DNA of 64,000 nt, taken from assembly GCF_900114435.1 (NCBI RefSeq), contig NZ_FOZK01000003.1, positions 372,001 through 436,000 of the forward strand, read 5' to 3'. Position numbers and translations under genes: made by a program. This document shows positions 41,377-54,823 of the stretch, piece after piece. Each line of letters opens with the position of its first letter. Position 1 is the first letter of the stretch. Source of the stretch: Halomicrobium zhouii (GTDB taxonomy: Archaea; Halobacteriota; Halobacteria; Halobacteriales; Haloarculaceae). The notes under the pieces were generated by a model that did not search any database, was not told where the DNA came from, and saw only the letters and a list, made by a program, of their open reading frames with translations.

Positions 41377-42474
41377 CTACGGGTCGCCGTTGTAGATGCC
41401 CGGTTCCTCCTCACCCTCGACCTGTATCACGCCCAGCATGCCCTTGCGGACGACCCGGGTGAGCGCGTGGTCGACGAGCTTGATCGGCCCCGGAACTGGC
41501 GTGTCTATCTCCGCGGCGGCGACGGTCCCGGGGGCGACCGGTGCCGTCTCGACGAACCGGTCGGGCTCGGAGACCAGGTCGCCGTCGCGGTAGAACGTCT
41601 CCCAGACGTTCCCGATGCCGTGCCAGGAGCTGATGTGGTTCGGACCGCCGTTGGAGTGGAAGATGCGGACGCGGTCCCCTTTCTCGACCGTGACCGGTCC
41701 GTAACCGTCCCCGGTGAACGCGTACGCCTCGCCGTTGAGGCAGACGTAGGTGGAATCCTGAGACTTCGCCGCGTCGATGTCGAACTCGTGGTGGCCCTCC
41801 TCGCCGGGCGCGCCGTTCGTGTAGAGTTCGTGCTGGCCGAAGAACAGCTCGTGGTCCACCTCCGGGAGCCCCTCCTCTGGTTCGACCAGGATGGCGCCGA
41901 ACATCCCCGCGCTGATGTGGTGGTCCATGTTCGGGACCGCACAGTGGTAGATGAAGACGCCCGGGTAGGTGGCCTGGTACTGGATCTCGGCGCTCTCCCC
42001 CGGCGCGATGGTCGTGTCGCTCGCACCGCCGCCCGGCCCGTAGACGGCGTGGAAGTCGATGTTGTGGGGTAGCTGGCTGTCCTCGGGATTGTTCAGCCGG
42101 AAGGTGACGGTGTCGCCGCGGCGCACCCGGACCATCGGCCCCGGAACCCGGCCGTCGAAGGTCATGTAGTCGAACGTGACGCCGGGCTCTATCTCCGCGG
42201 TCACCTCTTCGGTCGTCATCTCGACCTCGTGGTGGCGCGGCTCGTCCCAGTCGACCGGGTCCGGGATGTCTCGCGGGTCCGCCGCTATCCGGTCGACGTC
42301 GACGTCTTTCGCCGGGTCGAGTCCGTCCTCCGTCGCCGTGTCGGTCTCGCCCTGATTCGTGCTGGCAGCAGCCTCTTCCTCCCCGTCGCCGGAACAGCCA
42401 GCGACGAACGCCGCCCCGCCCACACTGATCGTCGAGAGGAACGCGCGTCGGTCCGTGAATGGCATTTCTTTCAT
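41377..42474 (-). CDS. nirK: Copper-containing nitrite reductase NirK
   Basis: A 365-residue two-cupredoxin enzyme that reduces nitrite to NO outside the membrane. A Tat-lipoprotein signal (DRRAFLSTISVGGAAFVAGC) is followed by an acidic linker. Type-1/type-2 copper ligands are in order: LPHNIDFHA, YHCAVPNMDHH, SAGM, and a His in NHISSWHG; the catalytic Asp is in HNID. The start is ATG 42474 (42465 possible). It is divergent from the NrfC-like operon and forms a denitrification unit with the NO reductase at 47349. Confidence 0.95.
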   Translation of the reverse strand: MKEMPFTDRRAFLSTISVGGAAFVAGCSGDGEEEAAASTNQGETDTATEDGLDPAKDVDVDRIAADPRDIPDPVDWDEPRHHEVEMTTEEVTAEIEPGVTFDYMTFDGRVPGPMVRVRRGDTVTFRLNNPEDSQLPHNIDFHAVYGPGGGASDTTIAPGESAEIQYQATYPGVFIYHCAVPNMDHHISAGMFGAILVEPEEGLPEVDHELFFGQHELYTNGAPGEEGHHEFDIDAAKSQDSTYVCLNGEAYAFTGDGYGPVTVEKGDRVRIFHSNGGPNHISSWHGIGNVWETFYRDGDLVSEPDRFVETAPVAPGTVAAAEIDTPVPGPIKLVDHALTRVVRKGMLGVIQVEGEEEPGIYNGDP

Positions 42475-42904
42475 GGTGCTACAGGTCGAGAGAACGGAGG
42501 AGACCCCATTCAAACGCGGAGGACGTCCCAGATTCGTGAGAATTGTTCCCGAGATTCGAGACGCCCGACGCAGATGTTCGACCGGTCGTTTATGTCGCTA
42601 CGGCGGCATCCCGCAGTATTACGGGCCTTATACGGTCGTTCGAGGAGTTTCGATTTCGCGTTACGTGCGCACCCGTTAGTGACGGGCATCCGGGCGGGAA
42701 CGCGGGGCCCGACCGTTCCTGAGTCTGAGAGGACGCAGTTTAGCCCTCTTAAACGGCCGAGTGAACATCTTCACCCACGTTCTCAGCGGCTGAGATGCGG
42801 GTGCGCGAGTGAAGGGGGCGAGGGCGCCAGTTCAGGGCGATGGTGACGATGACGGAGTACAGCTGTCGACGGAACTGCACCGTAGTAACGGAGGGGAATC
42901 GTCC
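42475..42904. promoter_or_regulatory. 430-bp divergent regulatory region, nirK / NrfC-like operon
   Basis: No gene is supported. It carries GTGAACATCTTCAC (42761-42774, 5-bp arms), TCTCAGCGGCTGAGA (42781-42795, 6-bp arms), a TATA-like CTTAAA (about 42748-42753), and an imperfect palindrome GAATTGTTCCCGAGATTC (about 42539-42556) on the nirK side. The palindromes are candidates for an oxygen or nitrogen-oxide responsive regulator. Confidence 0.45.
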
Positions 42905-44146
42905 GTGACCGACGAGGGGCCAGTCTCGTTCGACGAGGACGAGGAAGCCCGGATGGAACGGGCCCTGGCGGAGGCCGGGTACGACACCGAACTCGGCGTG
43001 GAGATGGCGAAAGACGCCCAGCGCGTCGCGGCCGGTGAGCTGGGCGAGGCGGCCTTCTTCGAGCGGTACCACGAGGAGGTCCTCGACGAGTTCGGCCGGG
43101 ACGCCCGCGAACTGCCGGAACTCCGCGACGACGTCGACGGCGAAGTCGTCGCCGACGCCGACGACCCCGACGGGATCCGCGAGAGCCTGGCGGCCATCGC
43201 CGACGACGAGGGCGTCTCCCGTCGAGAGGTGATGAAGAAGGGCGGCGCGGCAGCGATGGCCCTGAGCGTCTTCGCCGGGGGCGGCGGCGCGGCGGCTGGC
43301 GAAGACCAGGGGGAATCCTACGACGGGACGCGCTACGGGATGGTCATCAACCTCAACAACTGCGACGGCTGTCTCGCCTGCGTGAAAGCCTGCGAGCAGG
43401 AACACGGCACCTCGCGGGGCGCAAACTGGATGTACGTCTTCACGTACGAGGACGAGGACCAGGACGGCGAGAACTTCCTCGTCAGGCCCTGCCAGCACTG
43501 CACCGACTCGCCGTGTACGAAGGTCTGTCCCATCGGCGCGCGCCACACCCGCGAGCAGGACGGCCTCGTGCTGACCGACTACGACATCTGCATCGGCTGC
43601 CGGTACTGCGAGGTGTCCTGTCCATACGGAGTCAACTACTTCCAGTGGGGCGACCCCGACGTCCCCGAGTCGGAGATCGACGACGACCACCAGATCGACG
43701 AGCGCGGCCGCTGGGTCGGCGCGCGCCCGCCGAAGGGCGTGATGGGCAAGTGTACGTTCTGCGTCGACCGGCAGGACGGCCAGATGGGCGAGGAGAAGGT
43801 CGGGACCACGGCCTGCGAGGAGGCCTGTGCGATGGACGCCATCCACTTCGGCGACCTGAACGACGAGGAGAGCGCGCCGAACCAGCACCTGGCAGCCTAC
43901 GAGGAGGCTCACCAGAACGACCACTCCGAGTGGGAGAACCGCACGGACGACCTGGTTTCGACGTTCAAGCTGATGGAGGAACGGGGGACCAACCCGAACG
44001 TCACGTACATCGGCAACGAACCCTCCCAGGACGCTCGCCAGGTCGAGGGCCCGGTCGCCTACGAGGACATGGGCCTCGTCGACGACCGAAAGCAGGAAGT
44101 GCTGGACAGCGGCGCCATGGCGACGGACGGAGGTGAGGAGGCGTGA
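42905..44146 (+). CDS. Tat-linked 4x[4Fe-4S] ferredoxin subunit (NrfC/PsrB-like)
   Basis: A 413-residue iron-sulfur protein from GTG 42905, preceded by GGAGGGG (42890s); an earlier GTG at 42809 is possible. Residues ~15-95 form a helical N-terminal domain, then VSRREVMKKGGAAAMALSVF is a Tat-like motif near residue 107. Sixteen cysteines in four motifs follow (CDGCLACVKAC, CQHCTDSPCTKVC, CIGCRYCEVSC, and CTFC...CEEAC). It should hand electrons to or from the NrfD subunit, which overlaps by 4 nt. No molybdopterin subunit is present. Confidence 0.88.
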   Translation: MTDEGPVSFDEDEEARMERALAEAGYDTELGVEMAKDAQRVAAGELGEAAFFERYHEEVLDEFGRDARELPELRDDVDGEVVADADDPDGIRESLAAIADDEGVSRREVMKKGGAAAMALSVFAGGGGAAAGEDQGESYDGTRYGMVINLNNCDGCLACVKACEQEHGTSRGANWMYVFTYEDEDQDGENFLVRPCQHCTDSPCTKVCPIGARHTREQDGLVLTDYDICIGCRYCEVSCPYGVNYFQWGDPDVPESEIDDDHQIDERGRWVGARPPKGVMGKCTFCVDRQDGQMGEEKVGTTACEEACAMDAIHFGDLNDEESAPNQHLAAYEEAHQNDHSEWENRTDDLVSTFKLMEERGTNPNVTYIGNEPSQDARQVEGPVAYEDMGLVDDRKQEVLDSGAMATDGGEEA

Positions 44147-45468
44147 GCACCGACGTCTCCGGTGTCAGTCGCGAGGTGCTCGTCCGACCGATCCAGTCCC
44201 GGTCGAAGGGGTACCTCCTCGCGCTGGCGGCGTCGCTGGCCGCCATCGGCGTCTGGGTGTTCTTCTACACCCAGCAGCTCGAACACGGGATGATAGTCAC
44301 TAACCTCGCCGACTGGGGTTCCGGCGGTGGCGTCCCGTGGGGCCTCTACATCGGGGCGTTCATCTGGTGGGTCGGCATCGCACACGGCGGGATCATCCTG
44401 TCGGCGGCGGTCCGGCTCATCGGCCTCGACACCTACCAGCCGGTCGCGCGGATGGCGGAACTGCTGACCATCGCCGCGCTGACCTGCGCGGGGCTGTTCA
44501 TCCTCATCCACGTCGGCCGGCCGGACCGGCTGGTCACGAGCGTCCTGCCAGCGTGGCCGACGCGCGTCCAGTGGTCGCCGCTGATGTGGGACGTCACCGT
44601 CATCACCGCCTACTTCGTGCTGACGGGGACGTACCTCATGCTGACCATCAGGTACGACGTCCACCGCCTCAGGGACCAGCTCCCGGACGTCCTGGAACCT
44701 GTCTACCAGGCCCTGATGATCGGGTACACGGAGAAGGAGGACGCGGTCGTCGAGCGGATGGTGTGGTGGGTCGCCTTCGCCATCATCATCATGGCGCCGC
44801 TGTTGCTCCACGGGGGCGTCATCCCGTGGCTGTTCGCGCTGTTGCCGTCGATGGCCGGCTGGCACGGCGGCGTCCAGGGCCCATCCTTCCTCTCCATCGC
44901 GCTCACCTCTGCGGTCAGCGGCATCATCATCATCGCCGCTGCCTTCCGGTGGGCCTACGACTGGGAGGAACTCATCCCCGACGCCGTGTTCCGGGGCCTG
45001 GCGAAGTGGCTTGGCTTCTTCAGCCTGCTCTTCCTCTGGCTGCAGCTCCAGCAGGTCGTGACCGGCATCTTCGCCGCGCCGACCACGCTCCAGCACGCGA
45101 CGGAGGTGAAGCTCTCGACGCCGCTGTACTGGGTCGCCATCGGGCTCGTCGGCCTGACGCTGGCCTACGTGTTCGCCTCGGCGCTGAAGCCGTCGCTGTT
45201 CAGCATCCGCGCGATGGTGATGGCCTCCTTCGCGGTGCTTGTCGGCACGCTCGTCGAGAAGACGCTGTTCGTCGTCGAGGGGCTCCAGCACGCCCACTTC
45301 GCGCTGTACGACGGCGTGCCGGGCGCCTACGTCCCCTCGCCGGTCGAACTCTCCGCGGTGCTCGGCACCGCCGGCATCGCGGTGCTATTCTTCCTGGTCG
45401 TCTCGAAGGTGATCCCGGTGGTCGAACTGCACGCCATCGAGGCGGACCACGAGGAGGTGAACCAGTGA
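44143..45468 (+). CDS. NrfD/PsrC-family quinone-interacting membrane subunit
   Basis: A 441-residue integral membrane protein, GTG start overlapping the Fe-S gene stop. About ten helices are visible. VPWGLYIGAFIWWVGIAHGG and the HVGRPDR segment match the NrfD fold, which oxidises or reduces quinones at the membrane surface and docks an NrfC-type Fe-S protein. The small membrane gene starts at the last base of its stop (TGATG). Confidence 0.9.
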   Translation: MSTDVSGVSREVLVRPIQSRSKGYLLALAASLAAIGVWVFFYTQQLEHGMIVTNLADWGSGGGVPWGLYIGAFIWWVGIAHGGIILSAAVRLIGLDTYQPVARMAELLTIAALTCAGLFILIHVGRPDRLVTSVLPAWPTRVQWSPLMWDVTVITAYFVLTGTYLMLTIRYDVHRLRDQLPDVLEPVYQALMIGYTEKEDAVVERMVWWVAFAIIIMAPLLLHGGVIPWLFALLPSMAGWHGGVQGPSFLSIALTSAVSGIIIIAAAFRWAYDWEELIPDAVFRGLAKWLGFFSLLFLWLQLQQVVTGIFAAPTTLQHATEVKLSTPLYWVAIGLVGLTLAYVFASALKPSLFSIRAMVMASFAVLVGTLVEKTLFVVEGLQHAHFALYDGVPGAYVPSPVELSAVLGTAGIAVLFFLVVSKVIPVVELHAIEADHEEVNQ

Positions 45469-45704
45469 TGGTCCCGCTCGCCTCGTCGGTGCCGCACACG
45501 CTCCCGTTCGTCGGCCCGGGAACGTACCTCATCTTCGGCATCGTCCTCGCACCGGTGTACCTCATGTTGGTGGCGTGGTTCCTTGGCGAACCGAGCGACC
45601 GGCAGTCGGCGCTGCTCGGCGTCGGCTACGTCGCCGGGCTGACGACGGCCATCTGGGGCGGCCTGTTCGTGGTGACGATGATCATCGATTTCGCGTTCTT
45701 CTGA
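45468..45704 (+). CDS. Small membrane protein of the NrfCD operon
   Basis: A 78-residue protein with two hydrophobic helices (about residues 18-39 and 49-76) joined by FLGEPSDRQSAL. Its ATG shares one base with the nrfD stop, so it is translationally coupled and probably a subunit or assembly factor of the same complex. No family recognised. Confidence 0.75.
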   Translation: MVPLASSVPHTLPFVGPGTYLIFGIVLAPVYLMLVAWFLGEPSDRQSALLGVGYVAGLTTAIWGGLFVVTMIIDFAFF

Positions 45705-45783
45705 CCCGACGGCACCGCCCGCCGACCCCGTCGGCGAAACACCCCCCGACCGCTGCTCCCGACCCCGAAATCTACACGACCCC

Positions 45784-46899
45784 ATGACCCAACCAGAACT
45801 CGAATCCGAACTGACCGACCGACTCGCGACCGTCCAGGACCCGGCGAACGACGACGACGACGTCGTCTCGATGGGCCTCGTGAACGACGTCACCGTCCGC
45901 GACGGCACCGCGGAGGTGTCGCTGGCGTTCAACGCGCCCTACGCGCCCGAGGAGATAGAGATAGGCAACGCAATTCGTGAAGAGATCGAGGACGCCGGCC
46001 TCGAACCCGACCTTCGCGCGAACGTCGGCGAGGAACACGGCTACGACGAGGACGTCCTGCCGGGCGTCCGCAACGTCGTCGCCGTCGCCTCCGGGAAAGG
46101 CGGCGTCGGGAAGACCACCGTCGCGGCGAACCTCGCGGCCGGGCTCAAGGACCTTGGCGCTCGCGTCGGCATCCTCGACGCGGACGTGCACGGCCCGAAC
46201 GTCCCCCGGATCTTGCCCACCGAGAACGAACCGGGCATCACGCCCGACGAGGAGATCGTCCCGCCCCGCTCGGACGGGGTCATGGTGATGAGCACCCACC
46301 ACATGATGCCCGACGACGAGGACGAACCCGCGGTCATGCGCGGGCCGATGGTGAACAACGTGATGATGAAGTTCGTCAACGAGGTCCAGTGGGGCCGACT
46401 CGACTACCTCGTCGTCGACCTCCCGCCGGGGACCGGCGACGCCTCCCTGAACCTGTTGCAGACGCTGCCCGTCGCCGGCGTCGTCATCGTCACGACACCC
46501 CAGGAGATGGCGGTCGCGGACGCCCGCAAGGGGCTCCGACTGTTCGCGGACCACGACGCCCCCGTCCTCGGCGTCGTCGAGAACATGAGCACCTTCCGGT
46601 GTCCCGGCTGCGGCGACGACCACTCGGTGTTCGGCGAGGGCGGCGGCGACGAGATACGCGAGGACTACGACGTCCCGGTCCTGTCGCGCCTGCCCATCCA
46701 CCCCGACTTCGACAGCCAGGGCGGGGACGGCCCGACGGTCCGCGACGACGACAGCGTCGTCCAGGAAGACCTGTTCGACATGGTCGACAGCGTCGCCGAC
46801 CGCATCGGCGAGGAGAATCGACGAAAAGTCGCGGAGCACGTCGACGCAGCGAGGGCAGACGCGGGCGACGACGTCCCCGCGGCGGCCGAGTCTCGCTGA
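45784..46899 (+). CDS. Mrp/ApbC-type iron-sulfur carrier ATPase
   Basis: A 371-residue protein. An N-terminal DUF59/MIP18-like domain (1-90) precedes the P-loop domain with the deviant Walker A SGKGGVGKTT (~residue 101), the switch DADVHGPNVPR, and DLPPGTGDASL. A CPGCGDDHSVF motif near residue 276 supplies the Cys pair that holds a bridging [4Fe-4S] cluster. It delivers Fe-S clusters. Its place between the NrfC-like protein (four clusters) and the NOR fits a maturation role, though it may be general. Confidence 0.93.
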   Translation: MTQPELESELTDRLATVQDPANDDDDVVSMGLVNDVTVRDGTAEVSLAFNAPYAPEEIEIGNAIREEIEDAGLEPDLRANVGEEHGYDEDVLPGVRNVVAVASGKGGVGKTTVAANLAAGLKDLGARVGILDADVHGPNVPRILPTENEPGITPDEEIVPPRSDGVMVMSTHHMMPDDEDEPAVMRGPMVNNVMMKFVNEVQWGRLDYLVVDLPPGTGDASLNLLQTLPVAGVVIVTTPQEMAVADARKGLRLFADHDAPVLGVVENMSTFRCPGCGDDHSVFGEGGGDEIREDYDVPVLSRLPIHPDFDSQGGDGPTVRDDDSVVQEDLFDMVDSVADRIGEENRRKVAEHVDAARADAGDDVPAAAESR

Positions 46900-46950
46900 A
46901 TCGTCGGCCCACCGTCGGCCGGTCGCGTTGTGCTCGACGGCCGGCCGCGC

Positions 46951-47232
46951 TCACGCTTCGTCGCGAAGCGCTTCTGCGACCGCCTGCAGTTCGCCTTTCC
47001 TGAACGCGTTCTCCGTCGCCGCTGGATCGTCGTCGTCCAGTTCACCGACCTTCCAGAGGATGCCCGCCCGCATCTGTGGCTTCGACGGGAGCCGGTTCGT
47101 GTCGACGTCGTAGCCCACGGCCTCGCAGATCGCGGCCAGCGCCTCCTTCGTGAACGCCGTGGAGTACTCTCGCTCGTACCGCCCGACCGAGACGCGGATC
47201 TCGTTCCGGAGGGCGTCGACAGTTGGTGACAT
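46951..47232 (-). CDS. Conserved hypothetical protein
   Basis: A 93-residue helical protein starting MSPTVDALRNEIRVSVGRY with the blocks EALAAICEAVGYDVD, PSKPQMRAGILWKVG and an acidic end. It looks like a small two- or three-helix haloarchaeal protein with no cofactor motif. It is convergent with the Mrp gene and upstream of the NOR 3' end on the same strand. Confidence 0.65.
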   Translation of the reverse strand: MSPTVDALRNEIRVSVGRYEREYSTAFTKEALAAICEAVGYDVDTNRLPSKPQMRAGILWKVGELDDDDPAATENAFRKGELQAVAEALRDEA

Positions 47233-47348
47233 TGACAGCAGTGTGAACCGGCCGCGTTGTGTACGTTCCGGTCACCGGTAGCATTCGCGACTGGGCGAGT
47301 CCGCGACCGGGCGAACGTCTCCGTCCGGAGAAAAAGCGGCGAGGGCCG

Positions 47349-49631
47349 TCAGTCGTCGCCCAGCACGCCTTCCGCCACCGCCACGTCGTCGACGCCGGGG
47401 TCCTCCTCGGACGCCCGGAGGACGAACCGCTTTCTCACGAGGTCGGCCGAGTAGATGGCCGTCCCCAGGATGATGAGCGTGTCACCGGGGAGCCGTGCCC
47501 AGAACAGGTCCTGGACGATCGGCTGGTTGTAGAACGCCAGGCTCCGGCCCGCGGCGTAGCTCTCCGTGAAAATCGCCTCCAGCTGGAGGAAGCCGACCGG
47601 GAGGACGGAGCCGAACACCATCAGCGCCAGGCCGACGTTCCAGCACCAGAACGCAGCCCGGAGCCACGACCCGTCCCATCGGTCCGGTTCGATTGACAGC
47701 TGGAGCATGTAGGTCACCATCCCCAGCGCGAGGAAGCCGAACGCGCCGAACATCGCGGCGTGGGCGTGGCCGACGGTGAGGTAGGTGCCGTGCTCGTAGT
47801 AGTTTATCAGCGGGAGGTTGATGAAGAAGCCGAGCACGCCGGCGCCCACGAAGTTCCACACGCCGCTGGCGACGATGAACATGAACGGGAGTTTGTACGG
47901 GAAGTCCTCCGTCTCGGACATCGCCGTGTACTGGCCCAGCGCCTCGTAGAGGATGAACACCAGCGGGATCAGTTCCAGCGTCGAGAAGACGCTCCCGATG
48001 GGCACCCACATGTCCGGCATCCCGACCCACCAGTAGTGGTGGGAGACGCCGATGACGCCCGTGCTCATCACCAGCAGCGCCTGGAGCATGACCGCCTTCT
48101 CCGCGCTCCGGCGTTTCAGCAGGTTCATCGACACCAGCGTCAGGCCGACGATGGCGACGATGAAGAACTCGAAGGCCCCCTCGACCCACATGTGGACGAC
48201 CCACCAGCGCCAGAACTCCGTGACGGCGATGTTCGTCTCGGGCGTGAAGAAGAAGCCGGCGGTGAATAGCAGCGCGATAGAGCCGCCGGCGTACAGGATC
48301 ATGTGCGCGAGGCCGTACACCGGCTCGCGGTCCAGCAGCGGCTTCAGCCCCCGGATCGAGAGGACCGCCCAGAGGCCGAACCCGGCGAGCAGGCCGAACT
48401 GCCAGAGCTTGCCGACTTCGAGGTACTCCAGCCCCTCGTTGCCGACGAGCCACCAGAGGTCGCCGAAGTAGCCGTTGGACCCGAGCCAGATGCCGCCCAG
48501 ACCACCGACGGTGACGACGACGATGGCCACGAGCAACCCGTCGATGTACGTCGACTGGCGCTTCGGTTCGTGCCCGGTCAGCAGCGGCGGGAGGAACAGG
48601 CCCGCCCCCAGCCACGTCGCGGCGATCCAGAGGATCCCCAGGTCGATGTGCCAGGTCTTCGCCATCGCGAAGGGAAGGATCTGCAGGATGTGGACGCCGA
48701 ATATCTCCTCGACGCCGAAGAAGCCCGCCCGCTCGATGTAGAAGTGCGCCAGGAGTCCCCCCAGTAACACCTGTGCGAGGAACAGTCCCGCCGCGACCGG
48801 GACGAACCGCAACGCGGAGCGCTGGCTCGGGAAGACGCTCACGTCGCCGGGTTCGGGCACCGAGAGCCCCTCCGCGGACGGCTCCGGCAGTTCGACGGCC
48901 CGGTAGAGCCAGATGCCGAAGCCCGCCCCCGCGACGAGCAACACCATCGCGACGACGCTCCAGGTCATCGCCGCCCCGGTGGCGTCGTTGCCCGCACCGG
49001 GCGCGTACGGCCACTCGTTCGTGTACGAGTGGTCACCGTCGGGTCGGTCGGTGTGGGAGAACCACGCCGTCCACATGGCGAAGTCGGCGAACTCCTCGGC
49101 CGCCGTCTCGGAGTCGATCATCCCCTCGGGGACGCCGCGCTCGTGGCTCCCCTCGTGGTAGCGCTCGACGTACTCCTCGCGCACCTGCTGGTGGGCGTAC
49201 AGTTCGGCCGCCGAGTACTCGATGTCACCACCCTCGTACTGGTCGTCGAGGTCCTGCTTCACGACGTCGTCCACCGCCGCCCGTTCCTCTGACGCCAGGC
49301 TCTCGTACTCGCCGCCGTAGCGCTCCTCGGCGTAGTACGAGCGCATGTACCGGGTCTTCAACTCCAGGGCGTCGGCCGTGTAGTCGGCCCCGTAGTACGC
49401 GCCGTTGCCCAGGATCGACCCGTGGTTCATCAGCCCGTTCTTCTGGAACGCCTTCTTCCCGTCCCTGATCTGTTCGTCGGTGACCACCGTCTCGCCGTCG
49501 GGCCCGACCACCTGTTCGGGTATCGGCGGCGCTTCCTGGTAGGCGAACCACGCACCAGCGCCCATGACGACGAGGTTGAACACGAACGCGACGGCTATCA
49601 CCTTCGCGATAGTTTTGCGTCGTAACTCCAT
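47349..49631 (-). CDS. Quinol-dependent nitric oxide reductase (qNOR)
   Basis: A 760-residue single-subunit NOR, which reduces two NO to N2O. An N-terminal helix and a ~200-residue exterior NorC-like domain without a heme CxxCH precede the 12-helix NorB core. Metal ligands are visible: VHMWVEGAFEFF (FeB His and Glu), GVSHHYWWVG (two His) and HAHAAMFGAFG (heme ligands). The missing CxxCH marks it as quinol-dependent. It is in the denitrification island with nirK (41377). Confidence 0.95.
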   Translation of the reverse strand: MELRRKTIAKVIAVAFVFNLVVMGAGAWFAYQEAPPIPEQVVGPDGETVVTDEQIRDGKKAFQKNGLMNHGSILGNGAYYGADYTADALELKTRYMRSYYAEERYGGEYESLASEERAAVDDVVKQDLDDQYEGGDIEYSAAELYAHQQVREEYVERYHEGSHERGVPEGMIDSETAAEEFADFAMWTAWFSHTDRPDGDHSYTNEWPYAPGAGNDATGAAMTWSVVAMVLLVAGAGFGIWLYRAVELPEPSAEGLSVPEPGDVSVFPSQRSALRFVPVAAGLFLAQVLLGGLLAHFYIERAGFFGVEEIFGVHILQILPFAMAKTWHIDLGILWIAATWLGAGLFLPPLLTGHEPKRQSTYIDGLLVAIVVVTVGGLGGIWLGSNGYFGDLWWLVGNEGLEYLEVGKLWQFGLLAGFGLWAVLSIRGLKPLLDREPVYGLAHMILYAGGSIALLFTAGFFFTPETNIAVTEFWRWWVVHMWVEGAFEFFIVAIVGLTLVSMNLLKRRSAEKAVMLQALLVMSTGVIGVSHHYWWVGMPDMWVPIGSVFSTLELIPLVFILYEALGQYTAMSETEDFPYKLPFMFIVASGVWNFVGAGVLGFFINLPLINYYEHGTYLTVGHAHAAMFGAFGFLALGMVTYMLQLSIEPDRWDGSWLRAAFWCWNVGLALMVFGSVLPVGFLQLEAIFTESYAAGRSLAFYNQPIVQDLFWARLPGDTLIILGTAIYSADLVRKRFVLRASEEDPGVDDVAVAEGVLGDD

Positions 49632-49696: not shown

Positions 49697-49708
49697 CGAA
49701 CGTGTTCG
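49697..49708. promoter_or_regulatory. Palindrome upstream of qNOR
   Basis: CGAACGTGTTCG has 5-bp CGAAC/GTTCG arms with a 2-bp spacer, 66 bp before the qNOR start. It lies about 40 bp upstream of a weak TATA-like tract (about 49654-49662). The arms match those I recall for the haloarchaeal regulator NarO, whose spacer is 4 bp. Confidence 0.4.
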
Positions 49709-51640: not shown

Positions 51641-54600
51641 TCATCGCACCGGCACGGCAGCGGCGAGTCGTTCGACCGGGTGCGACGGGGGTTGCCCACC
51701 GGGTCGATCCTCGAGTTGCGTCCGACAGGACGCGCCCGGTGCGACGACGCGGTCACCGGCGCTGTCGTCGATTTGCTCGAACAGGAGCCGGGCGATAGAC
51801 TGACTCATGGAGTAGTGTTCGGCCTCGTAGCCGAAACTCCCGGCCATGCCGCAACAGCCCGAATCGAGCGCGTCGACGTCGTAGCCGGCTCGTCTGAGCA
51901 CGCCCACGGCGTAGTGGTCCTTCCTGGTCGCCTTCTGGTGACAGTGGCCGTGATACGCAAGCGTCTCCGCGGGCGGGTCCCAGTCGACACCCTCGTCGAG
52001 GCCGAACCAGCTGAGATACTCACAGAGCCCGTAGGCGTTCGCGGCGACCGTCTCGGCCTCGGCGGTGGCCAGCAGGTCGAGGTAATCCGACTGGAACATT
52101 ACGGCGTCGGACGGTTCGACGGCGACGACGTCCCACTCCTCCCCGACGAGAGGTGCGAGTGCTGCCGCGTTGTGTCGTGCGCGCTCGCGTGACTTGTCGA
52201 GAAACCCCTTCGAGTGGGCAGCGCGCCCGCTGGCCCGCAGGTTCGCTGGCACGCGAACGTGAACGCCCGCGGCTTCGAGCACGCTGACAGCTGCCCTCAG
52301 GACGGCCGGATCGCTGTAGTTGTTGTACGTATCGGGGAACAGTACGGCCTTCCGGGCCGCGTCGTCGGCCGGAACCGCTGGCCCGCGGTCGGCGTACCAC
52401 TCGACGAAGGACTCCCGGTGGAACGTCGGCAGGTCGCGCTCGCGGGCGATACCGAAGAGCTTCTCCGAGACGACGTCGCTCCCGGGAAGCGAGGCCAGCC
52501 AGTTCGAAACCGGTGCGAGCGCGCTCCCGAGCTTGCTGAGTCGCTCGACGTCGGCGAACAGCCGGTCGCGCATGCCGGCCCCGTTCTCCTGGTGGTTCGC
52601 GTGCTGGAGTTCGGCCTTGAGCTTGGCCATGTCGACCTCGCTCGGGCAGTCGCGGGCACAGCCCTTGCAGCCGATACACAGGTCCATGATCTCGGTCGTG
52701 AACGCCTCGCTGGTCGGGTCCTGGGGGAGGTCGCCGCTCATCGCCTGCCTGAGCGCGTTGGCGCGACCGCGCGTCGCCGTCGACTCCTCCTCGCTCGCGC
52801 GGTAGGTCGGACACATCACCCCGCCGGTCGTCTCCTGGTGCCCGCGACAGCCCCCACAGCCGTGGCAGAGTTCGACCATCCCCTGGAACCCGTTGTCGTT
52901 GTCCCAGCGGAGTGCCGGGTCGAAGCCGGCGTCGAACTCGTAGTCGGGTTCGTACCGCAAATGCTCCGTCATGTCCACGTCGCCGCTGACCTGTCCGGGG
53001 TTCAGGAGCCAGTCCGGGTCGAAGGCGGTCTTGAGATCGCCGAAGAGCTCCCAGACGTAGTCGCCGTACAGCTTCCGGTTCCACTGCGTGCGGGCGCGAC
53101 CGTCGCCGTGCTCGCCGGAGACGCTGCCGCCGTACTCGAGGACCAGGTCCGTCGCCGCCTCGGCGATGGCCTCCATCTGCTCGACGCCGTCGAGAGACTT
53201 CGTGTCGACGAGCGGGCGGATGTGGAGACACCCCGGCCCGGCGTGGGCGTAGAAGCTAGCGAACGTCCCGTTGTCTTCGAGGACGTCCCGGAAGTCGGCG
53301 ACGTACTCGGCGAGGTTCTCCGGGGGCACCGCGGTATCCTCGATGAAGCTGACGTGCTTCTCGTCGGAGGTCCGGCCCAGCAAGATGGGGAGACCGCTCT
53401 TGCGGAGCTTCCAGAACCGGCTCCGTTCCGCGTCGCTGTGGGCCTCCCGGCCCGCGAAAGCGTGCAGCGGTTCCGCCGTCAGCTCTTCGGCACGTTCCTG
53501 CGGAATCGCCTCCGGTGAGACGTCGCCGACCCGATCGGTCAGCAAGTCGGCGACGTACTCTTTGCCTTCGCGGTCGGTCTCGGCGTAGAACTCGACGAGG
53601 AGGAGCGCCCCCGCCTGCTCGGGGACGATTTCGTTGACGAGTTCGCCGAACTCCTCGGTCGGGCGCGCCAGGTCCAGCAGGACGTCGTCGAGCACCTCGA
53701 CCGCCGACGGGTCGTGTTCGAGGATCGGGGGGACGTCCCGCATCGCGTCGACGAGGTCCTCGTAGGCCAGGAGCGCGAGCGCCTTCGTCTCGGGGACGGG
53801 TTCCAGCGAGACGGTCGCCTCGGTGACGACGGCCAGCGTCCCCTCGCTGCCCGCGAGCAGGCGCGCCAGGTTGACGCTGCCGGAGTCGGCTTCCTCGACC
53901 AGGCGGTCGAGGTTGTAGCCCGAGACGTTGCGCTTCAGGTCGGGGAACGCCTCGGCGACAGCCTCGGCTTCCTCGTCGACGATACGAGCGACCGCGGCGT
54001 AGATTCGCGACTCCAGGTCGTCGGATTCGACGGCGTCGGCGGGCTTTCCGGAAACCTCGAACTCCCCGGAACCGCCGGCGGCCCGCTCCCGGAGTTCCTC
54101 CAGCGTCACCTCGCCGAAGGTGGTGACCGTGCCGTCGGCGAGGACGACCTCGCACTCCTCGACGTAGGCGTCCGTCTTCCCGTACTTCAGCGAGTGCGAG
54201 CCCGTGGAGTTGTTGCCGATAGCGCCCCCGAGGACGCTCTTGTCGCCCCAGGCGGGGTCCGGCGCGAACTTCAGGTCGTGCTCCGCGAGGCGCTCGTTCA
54301 GGTCTGCGAGGATGACCCCAGCCTCCGCGCGTGCAGTCCGGGCCTCAGGGTCGACCGACTGAATCGAGTCCATGTGCCGCGAGAAGTCGAGGACGACCGC
54401 CTCGTTGACGGCCTGCCCAGCGAGGCTCGTCCCCCCGCCGCGCGGGAGCACCGGCGTCCCGCGCTCGGCGCAGTAGGAGACGACCGCCGCGACGTCCGCC
54501 GTCGACCGCGGGAAGACGACGCCAATGGGCGTCACCTCGTAGGCGCTGGCGTCCGTCGCGTACAGTTCCCGAGTGAGGTCGTCGAACCGGACGTCCCCGT

Positions 54601-54721
54601 CGACCCGCTCCCGGAGGTCCCTGACGAAGCCGGGCCGTTCGACGTCGCCGGCCTGGTAGTCGTACCGGGCCCGGTCGTCGCTCTCTGGGCCGTCGGCCGG
54701 TCCCTCCGTACTCGTTCCCAT
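51641..54721 (-). CDS. FAD-linked dehydrogenase with Fe-S and CCG domains (D-lactate/glycolate type)
   Basis: A 1026-residue fusion. An FAD_binding_4 domain (~50-290; PRGGGTSLAGQAV, GAIGNNSTGSHSLKYG) and an FAD-oxidase C-terminal domain (~300-560; GEHGDGRARTQW) are joined to a ferredoxin domain (CHGCGGC..., CIGCKGCARDCP). Two CCG-type modules follow, with YHGHCHQKA and SGCCGMAGSFGYE. It combines in one chain what GlcD-GlcF do separately, oxidising a 2-hydroxyacid and passing electrons to quinone. Exact substrate unproven. ATG 54721 is used. Confidence 0.9.
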   Translation of the reverse strand: MGTSTEGPADGPESDDRARYDYQAGDVERPGFVRDLRERVDGDVRFDDLTRELYATDASAYEVTPIGVVFPRSTADVAAVVSYCAERGTPVLPRGGGTSLAGQAVNEAVVLDFSRHMDSIQSVDPEARTARAEAGVILADLNERLAEHDLKFAPDPAWGDKSVLGGAIGNNSTGSHSLKYGKTDAYVEECEVVLADGTVTTFGEVTLEELRERAAGGSGEFEVSGKPADAVESDDLESRIYAAVARIVDEEAEAVAEAFPDLKRNVSGYNLDRLVEEADSGSVNLARLLAGSEGTLAVVTEATVSLEPVPETKALALLAYEDLVDAMRDVPPILEHDPSAVEVLDDVLLDLARPTEEFGELVNEIVPEQAGALLLVEFYAETDREGKEYVADLLTDRVGDVSPEAIPQERAEELTAEPLHAFAGREAHSDAERSRFWKLRKSGLPILLGRTSDEKHVSFIEDTAVPPENLAEYVADFRDVLEDNGTFASFYAHAGPGCLHIRPLVDTKSLDGVEQMEAIAEAATDLVLEYGGSVSGEHGDGRARTQWNRKLYGDYVWELFGDLKTAFDPDWLLNPGQVSGDVDMTEHLRYEPDYEFDAGFDPALRWDNDNGFQGMVELCHGCGGCRGHQETTGGVMCPTYRASEEESTATRGRANALRQAMSGDLPQDPTSEAFTTEIMDLCIGCKGCARDCPSEVDMAKLKAELQHANHQENGAGMRDRLFADVERLSKLGSALAPVSNWLASLPGSDVVSEKLFGIARERDLPTFHRESFVEWYADRGPAVPADDAARKAVLFPDTYNNYSDPAVLRAAVSVLEAAGVHVRVPANLRASGRAAHSKGFLDKSRERARHNAAALAPLVGEEWDVVAVEPSDAVMFQSDYLDLLATAEAETVAANAYGLCEYLSWFGLDEGVDWDPPAETLAYHGHCHQKATRKDHYAVGVLRRAGYDVDALDSGCCGMAGSFGYEAEHYSMSQSIARLLFEQIDDSAGDRVVAPGASCRTQLEDRPGGQPPSHPVERLAAAVPVR

Positions 54722-54823
54722 TGGCCTCACTTCGGCGCGGGAGCGGATTAAAACTCCGGCGGTCGCGAACGGGTACTGCTGTACTCGACGGGCACCGGTC
54801 TCGAAGGCGGTCCGGAGAGCGTC

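Follow-up and report, generated by a model that had tools for sequence, protein, structure and literature searches.

What does a cell do with an iron–sulfur (Fe-S) protein and a membrane quinone subunit that have no catalytic gene beside them? The question is posed by a 64,000-nucleotide stretch of DNA from the haloarchaeon Halomicrobium zhouii (assembly GCF_900114435.1, contig NZ_FOZK01000003.1, positions 372,001 to 436,000; 'the window' in what follows), where such a module lies between nirK, the gene for copper nitrite reductase, and norZ, the gene for a quinol-type nitric oxide reductase (qNor). A preliminary description of this DNA had placed there a 16-cysteine Fe-S protein, an NrfD-family protein, a 78-residue membrane protein coupled to it, and then an Mrp-type carrier, with no catalytic subunit among them. 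In this it was right: all four genes are present in the sequence, no multihaem NrfA is found at the locus, and in the window annotation none of the genes between nirK and norZ is a molybdopterin or multihaem gene. We consider it likely that the four genes encode a minimal relative of alternative complex III (ACIII), a menaquinol:cupredoxin (halocyanin) oxidoreductase, that the copy in the window is linked to denitrification, and that a sister clade, B, replaces the cytochrome bc1 complex in haloarchaea that lack it. The genes are these:

42905 to 44146, plus strand: Fe-S subunit, 413 amino acids; the best start is the GTG at 42905
44143 to 45468, plus strand: ActC-like membrane quinol subunit of the NrfD family (PF03916, E = 5.6e-18)
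45468 to 45704, plus strand: small membrane protein, 78 amino acids, two transmembrane helices, no Pfam family
45784 to 46899, plus strand: Mrp/ApbC-type Fe-S cluster carrier (PF10609, E = 2.9e-85, and synteny)

The 3' end of the Fe-S gene overlaps the NrfD gene by 4 bp, and the small membrane gene starts within the NrfD stop codon (TGATG) and is translationally coupled to it. When one genome per species was scanned, giving 80 named loci, the order Fe-S, NrfD, small protein, Mrp was kept in about 60, a recurrence that chance does not explain. No relative of the small protein can be recognised in Pfam or the PDB; the protein is conserved in 106 distinct homologues, and its gene is therefore real. 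The quartet is a conserved haloarchaeal operon. The first three genes, taken by themselves as the unit in the preliminary description, are real and recur in order, but the conserved unit includes Mrp.

It is the membrane subunit that gives the clearest answer. Sequence-profile searches of the PDB with the NrfD protein match solely ActC, in four ACIII structures (6f0k, 6btm, 6lod and 8k9e; E 1e-25 to 1e-27). The predicted model (predicted local distance difference test, pLDDT, 79; predicted template-modelling score, pTM, 0.85) has ten long helices, and a fold search with it returns the same four ActC structures (TM-score 0.82–0.84), then ActF, and nothing further that is significant. PsrC and DmsC are absent from the significant PDB matches of both searches; this and the ten helices of the model speak against an eight-helix subunit of the PsrC/DmsC type. 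The label 'NrfC/NrfD' first given to the pair describes poorly a protein that is ActC-like. Two residues, H123 and D150, are invariant in 146 of 146 sequences, and in a pairwise alignment they fall on H139 and D169 of ActC, which together with D253 are the named quinone-site residues of that protein (PMC8076601). The position of D253 is occupied by leucine in the same alignment, and is not conserved. A search of the whole H. zhouii genome finds one NrfD gene, hence no second NrfD subunit, ActF. In-frame TGA codons in some distant NrfD matches probably mean that the match overran a normal stop, as judged from similar flags on NirK matches, which fall at the C-terminal end.

The Fe-S subunit tells a similar story. 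An N-terminal helical domain (PF16947) is followed by a motif of the twin-arginine translocation (Tat) type, SRREVMKK, with the arginine pair at residues 106–107, and downstream of this come exactly 16 cysteines in four [4Fe-4S] cluster motifs. The arginine pair is kept in 121 of 121 homologues, and 15 of the 16 cysteines are invariant or nearly so among them. The remaining one, C286, is aspartate in 11, all of them unlinked, motif-free Natrialbaceae copies (L154–L157, L159, L160, L165, L167, L169–L171); by analogy, the change could convert one [4Fe-4S] cluster to [3Fe-4S], a cluster that has been described for ActB (PMC10100899). The profile of the Fe-S subunit matches residues 783–1007 of ActB (E = 2.7e-39), the Fe-S domain in the C-terminal half of that protein; only ArrB does slightly better, an order that fits the published kinship, in which ActB is nearest to ArrAB (PMC10100899). 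Among the best NCBIfam matches are the QrcC and DsrO models, both under their cut-offs. An AlphaFold model of the subunit (pLDDT 58) was too poor for a fold search and was not used.

Because the arginine pair comes after the PF16947 domain, some 65 residues with no cysteine, the Fe-S subunit is likely, as its sequence reads, to have an unusually long Tat leader. PF16947 bears the name 'Ferredoxin_N', yet it looks less like part of a ferredoxin than like a helical domain for maturation or export. Searched for in 295 genomes of the phylum, it is confined to the Haloarchaea. It is found, too, as a separate small protein (L173:4869-5213, reverse strand numbering) just upstream of a gene for a Tat-type, dmsA-like molybdoenzyme.

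Who carries the quartet, and in what company? Among 242 haloarchaeal genomes, clade A, which includes the window's copy (81–85% identity), is present in 17, and its sister clade B (55–66%) in 62. Trees built from 123 and 160 sequences separate four groups: clade A; B1, from Natronomonas and Halovenus; B2, the linked modules of Natrialbaceae; and a 'lone' Natrialbaceae NrfD, with its Fe-S partner gene at a separate locus. In 20 of the 56 B2 modules (L076, L093, L104 and L105, for example), the small membrane gene is doubled as tandem paralogues.

Roughly one third of haloarchaea lack bc1, and how electrons pass from menaquinol to halocyanin in these organisms has been called unresolved (PMC3403918; PMC8305020, section 3.1e). 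By our search 67 of the 242 genomes have no true petB (nothing better than E 1e-100). Of these 67, 58 have clade B, versus 4 of the 175 with petB (Fisher p = 4e-41), and the exclusion is seen at the level of genera as well (20/4 versus 6/44, p = 2.6e-9). It recurs in four families (f1, f3, f10 and f11), in three of which (f1, f3 and f10) sister genera with petB are without clade B. Clade A, by contrast, is found with petB in 17 of 17 genomes.

The promoters divide the family along a related line. A motif known from the nar, nirK, nor and nos promoters of Haloferax mediterranei, CGAAYATDKTYG (PMC11218638), occurs with at most one mismatch upstream of the Fe-S gene in 46 of 56 B2 modules and 11 of 21 clade A modules, but in none of 23 B1 modules, 38 lone NrfD genes or 19 unlinked Fe-S genes (shuffled expectation, fewer than two per set); some of these counts hinge on start calls. 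Where present, it often lies about 160–200 bp upstream. The best reading is that the family has two branches: one motif-free and bc1-replacing (Natronomonas, Halovenus and the unlinked Natrialbaceae pair), the other linked to denitrification (the Natrialbaceae modules and the window's clade). A different palindrome, CGAAC-N4-GTTCG, was also tried; it is little above background in the window, and it was the published motif that worked in the homologues. The remaining features of the locus, motif sites included, are as follows:

41377 to 42474 (right end approximate), minus strand: nirK, copper nitrite reductase, with a Tat/lipobox N-terminus (TIGR02376, 368.5 bits; cut-off 296.3)
42569 to 42580: degenerate motif CGCAGATGTTCG, two mismatches to the published one, upstream of nirK; weak alone
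42762 to 42773: palindrome TGAACATCTTCA, a variant denitrification motif in the Fe-S promoter, present also in the near-twin locus L032
46951 to 47232, minus strand: open reading frame of 93 amino acids between mrp and norZ, no Pfam match; seen among the named loci only in the near-twin
47349 to 49631, minus strand: norZ, qNor (PF22085 and PF00115)
49697 to 49708: motif CGAACGTGTTCG, one mismatch, upstream of norZ

Matches as degenerate as the one upstream of nirK number 46 in the window versus 43 expected. The pattern YGAACATNTTCR has 13 sites in the whole genome, the one at 42762 among them, versus none for a reversed-pattern control; other sites of this pattern adjoin genes for halocyanin, DUF2249 and HTH_10 proteins and COX1. 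Near norZ (51641 to 54730, minus strand) lies a gene for a 1029-residue FAD-linked oxidase of the D-lactate/glycolate dehydrogenase type, fused to Fe-S and CCG domains. Several denitrification motifs also mark a second island of the genome (C1:27000-45000; L239, L240), with genes for two cupredoxins, a multicopper oxidase, two DUF2249 proteins, COX1 and an HTH_10 regulator; a second nirK lies at C1:85173.

Neighbouring genes elsewhere point to where the electrons might go. In about 14 loci the gene immediately upstream of the Fe-S gene is one for halocyanin (PF00127); adjacency counts made with a halocyanin sequence pattern are lower bounds, since clustering found genes that the pattern missed. 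The four genomes of genus g33 all have their unlinked Fe-S gene next to an operon of COX4 and a fused CoxA/C. Most Natrialbaceae modules have an HTH_10 regulator beside them, with DUF2249 genes and nirK also near. Whether the module goes with nirK in haloarchaea at large, a check that the preliminary description proposed, proves to depend on lineage. In Natrialbaceae the adjacency is strong, nirK lying within 9.5 kb of 18 of the 56 modules, but of 21 clade A modules fetched just one, the window's near-twin, has nirK so close. Across whole genomes clade B and nirK show no association (p = 0.88), and in clade A the association is weak (13 of 17 genomes, p = 0.046); norZ is found in 16 of the 17 (p = 5e-4). 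De novo clustering of the neighbours in the 80 loci yields no conserved catalytic partner, two loci (L045 and L097) excepted.

As we picture it, the ActC-like subunit would oxidise menaquinol near the membrane's outer face, and the Fe-S subunit, exported by the Tat pathway, would relay the electrons through its four clusters to a cupredoxin, halocyanin, the subunits acting as one complex. The cupredoxin would then reduce NirK in denitrification or, in the aerobic respiration of species without bc1, a terminal oxidase. The small protein's probable part is to stabilise the membrane subunit. Mrp probably loads the clusters in the cytoplasm, ahead of export, a role that fits because the Tat pathway takes folded proteins. 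The copy in the window probably feeds NirK, and in an organism that has bc1 it would be an extra route used under denitrification. Of the two functions originally suggested for the module, that of a quinol-oxidising relay to an exterior acceptor gains strong support from the ActC- and ActB-type subunits, the invariant H123 and D150, the exported Fe-S protein and the denitrification motif. The other, the core of a novel energy-conserving complex, is better recast as a reduced ACIII-like complex, relatives of which most likely replace complex III altogether in bc1-less genomes.

How does such a complex compare with those already known? With ACIII (ActABCDEFG) it shares the ten-helix quinol subunit of the ActC type with two of the quinone-site residues, an Fe-S subunit that resembles ActB's C-terminal half, and occurrence in genomes without bc1, one haloarchaeal copy lying beside a terminal oxidase operon. 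Unlike ACIII, it has no haem c subunits (ActA, ActE) and no ActF; the MopB-like N-terminal half of ActB is missing, with PF16947 and the Tat motif in its stead; there is a small two-helix protein; and the probable acceptor is a copper protein rather than cytochrome c. ActB has been reported not to be found in archaea (PMC10100899). NrfABCD resembles it in pairing a 16-cysteine Fe-S protein with an NrfD-family membrane protein, and in the nitrite context, but the module lacks the multihaem proteins NrfA and NrfB, and the TIGR03149 score, 109 bits, is below its cut-off (377.6). From DsrMKJOP come the top NCBIfam matches of the two proteins, DsrO and DsrP, the latter of which groups with ActC (PMC8076601); both are nonetheless under cut-off (155.7/200 and 75.9/350 bits), and the operon has no genes for DsrM, K or J. 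Haloarchaeal DmsABC likewise has an NrfD-family subunit, an Fe-S subunit, an HTH_10-type regulator and PF16947 (in this dimethyl sulfoxide system a separate small protein), but it includes a molybdoenzyme, and its NrfD is about 27–35% identical to that of the module. The b6f-like petABD (bc1) complex of haloarchaea has the same proposed role, menaquinol to halocyanin, and consists of unrelated proteins; it and clade B come close to excluding one another.

Several observations weigh against our interpretation. With no haem subunits, no ActF and no MopB-like half of ActB, the electrons cannot leave by the known exit. Nine petB-less genomes, mostly of family f2, are without clade B (G001, G002, G007, G010, G039, G093, G220, G221 and G236) and perhaps use quinol oxidases only, while four genomes carry both clade B and petB. 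Because the genomes are related to one another, the p-value counted by genome makes the case look stronger than it is, and the 242 are a sample. As for the window itself, its promoter site departs from the published motif at three positions; nirK is not among the neighbours of most clade A modules; and since the genome, which also has a separate nar-type cytochrome b, has petABD, the quartet is additional in this organism rather than essential.

Three other explanations deserve a hearing. If clade B is complex III in bc1-less lineages, clade A might still be something else, for example a redox-balance or nitric oxide-stress valve that passes electrons to another exterior acceptor. Its constant company with petB, its closer tie to norZ than to nirK, and the adjacency of nirK at only the window and its twin all suit this idea; we hold it unlikely, for clade A keeps the same four genes and the same conserved residues, half of its promoters have the motif, and the window's copy sits between nirK and norZ. 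Or the module might be an orphan of the Psr/Dms type, serving a molybdoenzyme encoded elsewhere. Haloarchaeal NrfD proteins have indeed been lumped as 'DmsC' (PMC8076601), and in L045 (105-11500) and L097 the module comes right behind genes for a molybdopterin oxidoreductase, an Fe-S protein similar to NarH and a chaperone of the NarJ/TorD type; this version, of seven genes, tells us that the module can be recruited to other reductases. These two are the only such partners in about 140 loci, however, and true haloarchaeal dms operons (L173) have their own Fe-S subunit as well as their distant NrfD. Fold and profile indicate ActC with no match to PsrC or DmsC, and the petB exclusion would go unexplained. 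All told, this origin seems quite improbable.

Running the machinery backwards, as a Qrc-like complex that passes electrons from an external donor to the menaquinone pool, strikes us as very improbable. NrfD-type subunits can work in either direction (PMC8076601), and QrcC and DsrO do figure among the sub-threshold matches of the Fe-S protein; but clustering in the 80 loci found no conserved hydrogenase, formate dehydrogenase or cytochrome c gene near the modules, the denitrification motif and the neighbouring genes for NirK, halocyanin and a terminal oxidase all imply a sink for electrons, and the exclusion with bc1 implies quinol oxidation.

This brings us back to menaquinol oxidation by an ACIII relative, and to the larger proposition that a branch of ActC- and ActB-like proteins, with no molybdopterin, no haem and no second NrfD, is the long-missing menaquinol:halocyanin complex III of bc1-less haloarchaea, split into an aerobic form and a denitrification-controlled one, the window's being the latter. 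On balance we lean towards it. The open-access literature, to which our search was confined (subscription journals and preprints lay outside it), yielded no earlier proposal of an ACIII-like stand-in for complex III in haloarchaea. What the finding provides is a strong candidate for the missing link between menaquinol and halocyanin: a specific, conserved and deletable gene set whose presence tracks the loss of bc1. If true, chemistry of the ACIII type would extend to the archaea, and in its smallest version, without haem or MopB remnant, and a quinol-oxidising arm of haloarchaeal denitrification would be identified, under a promoter motif shared with nar, nir, nor and nos.

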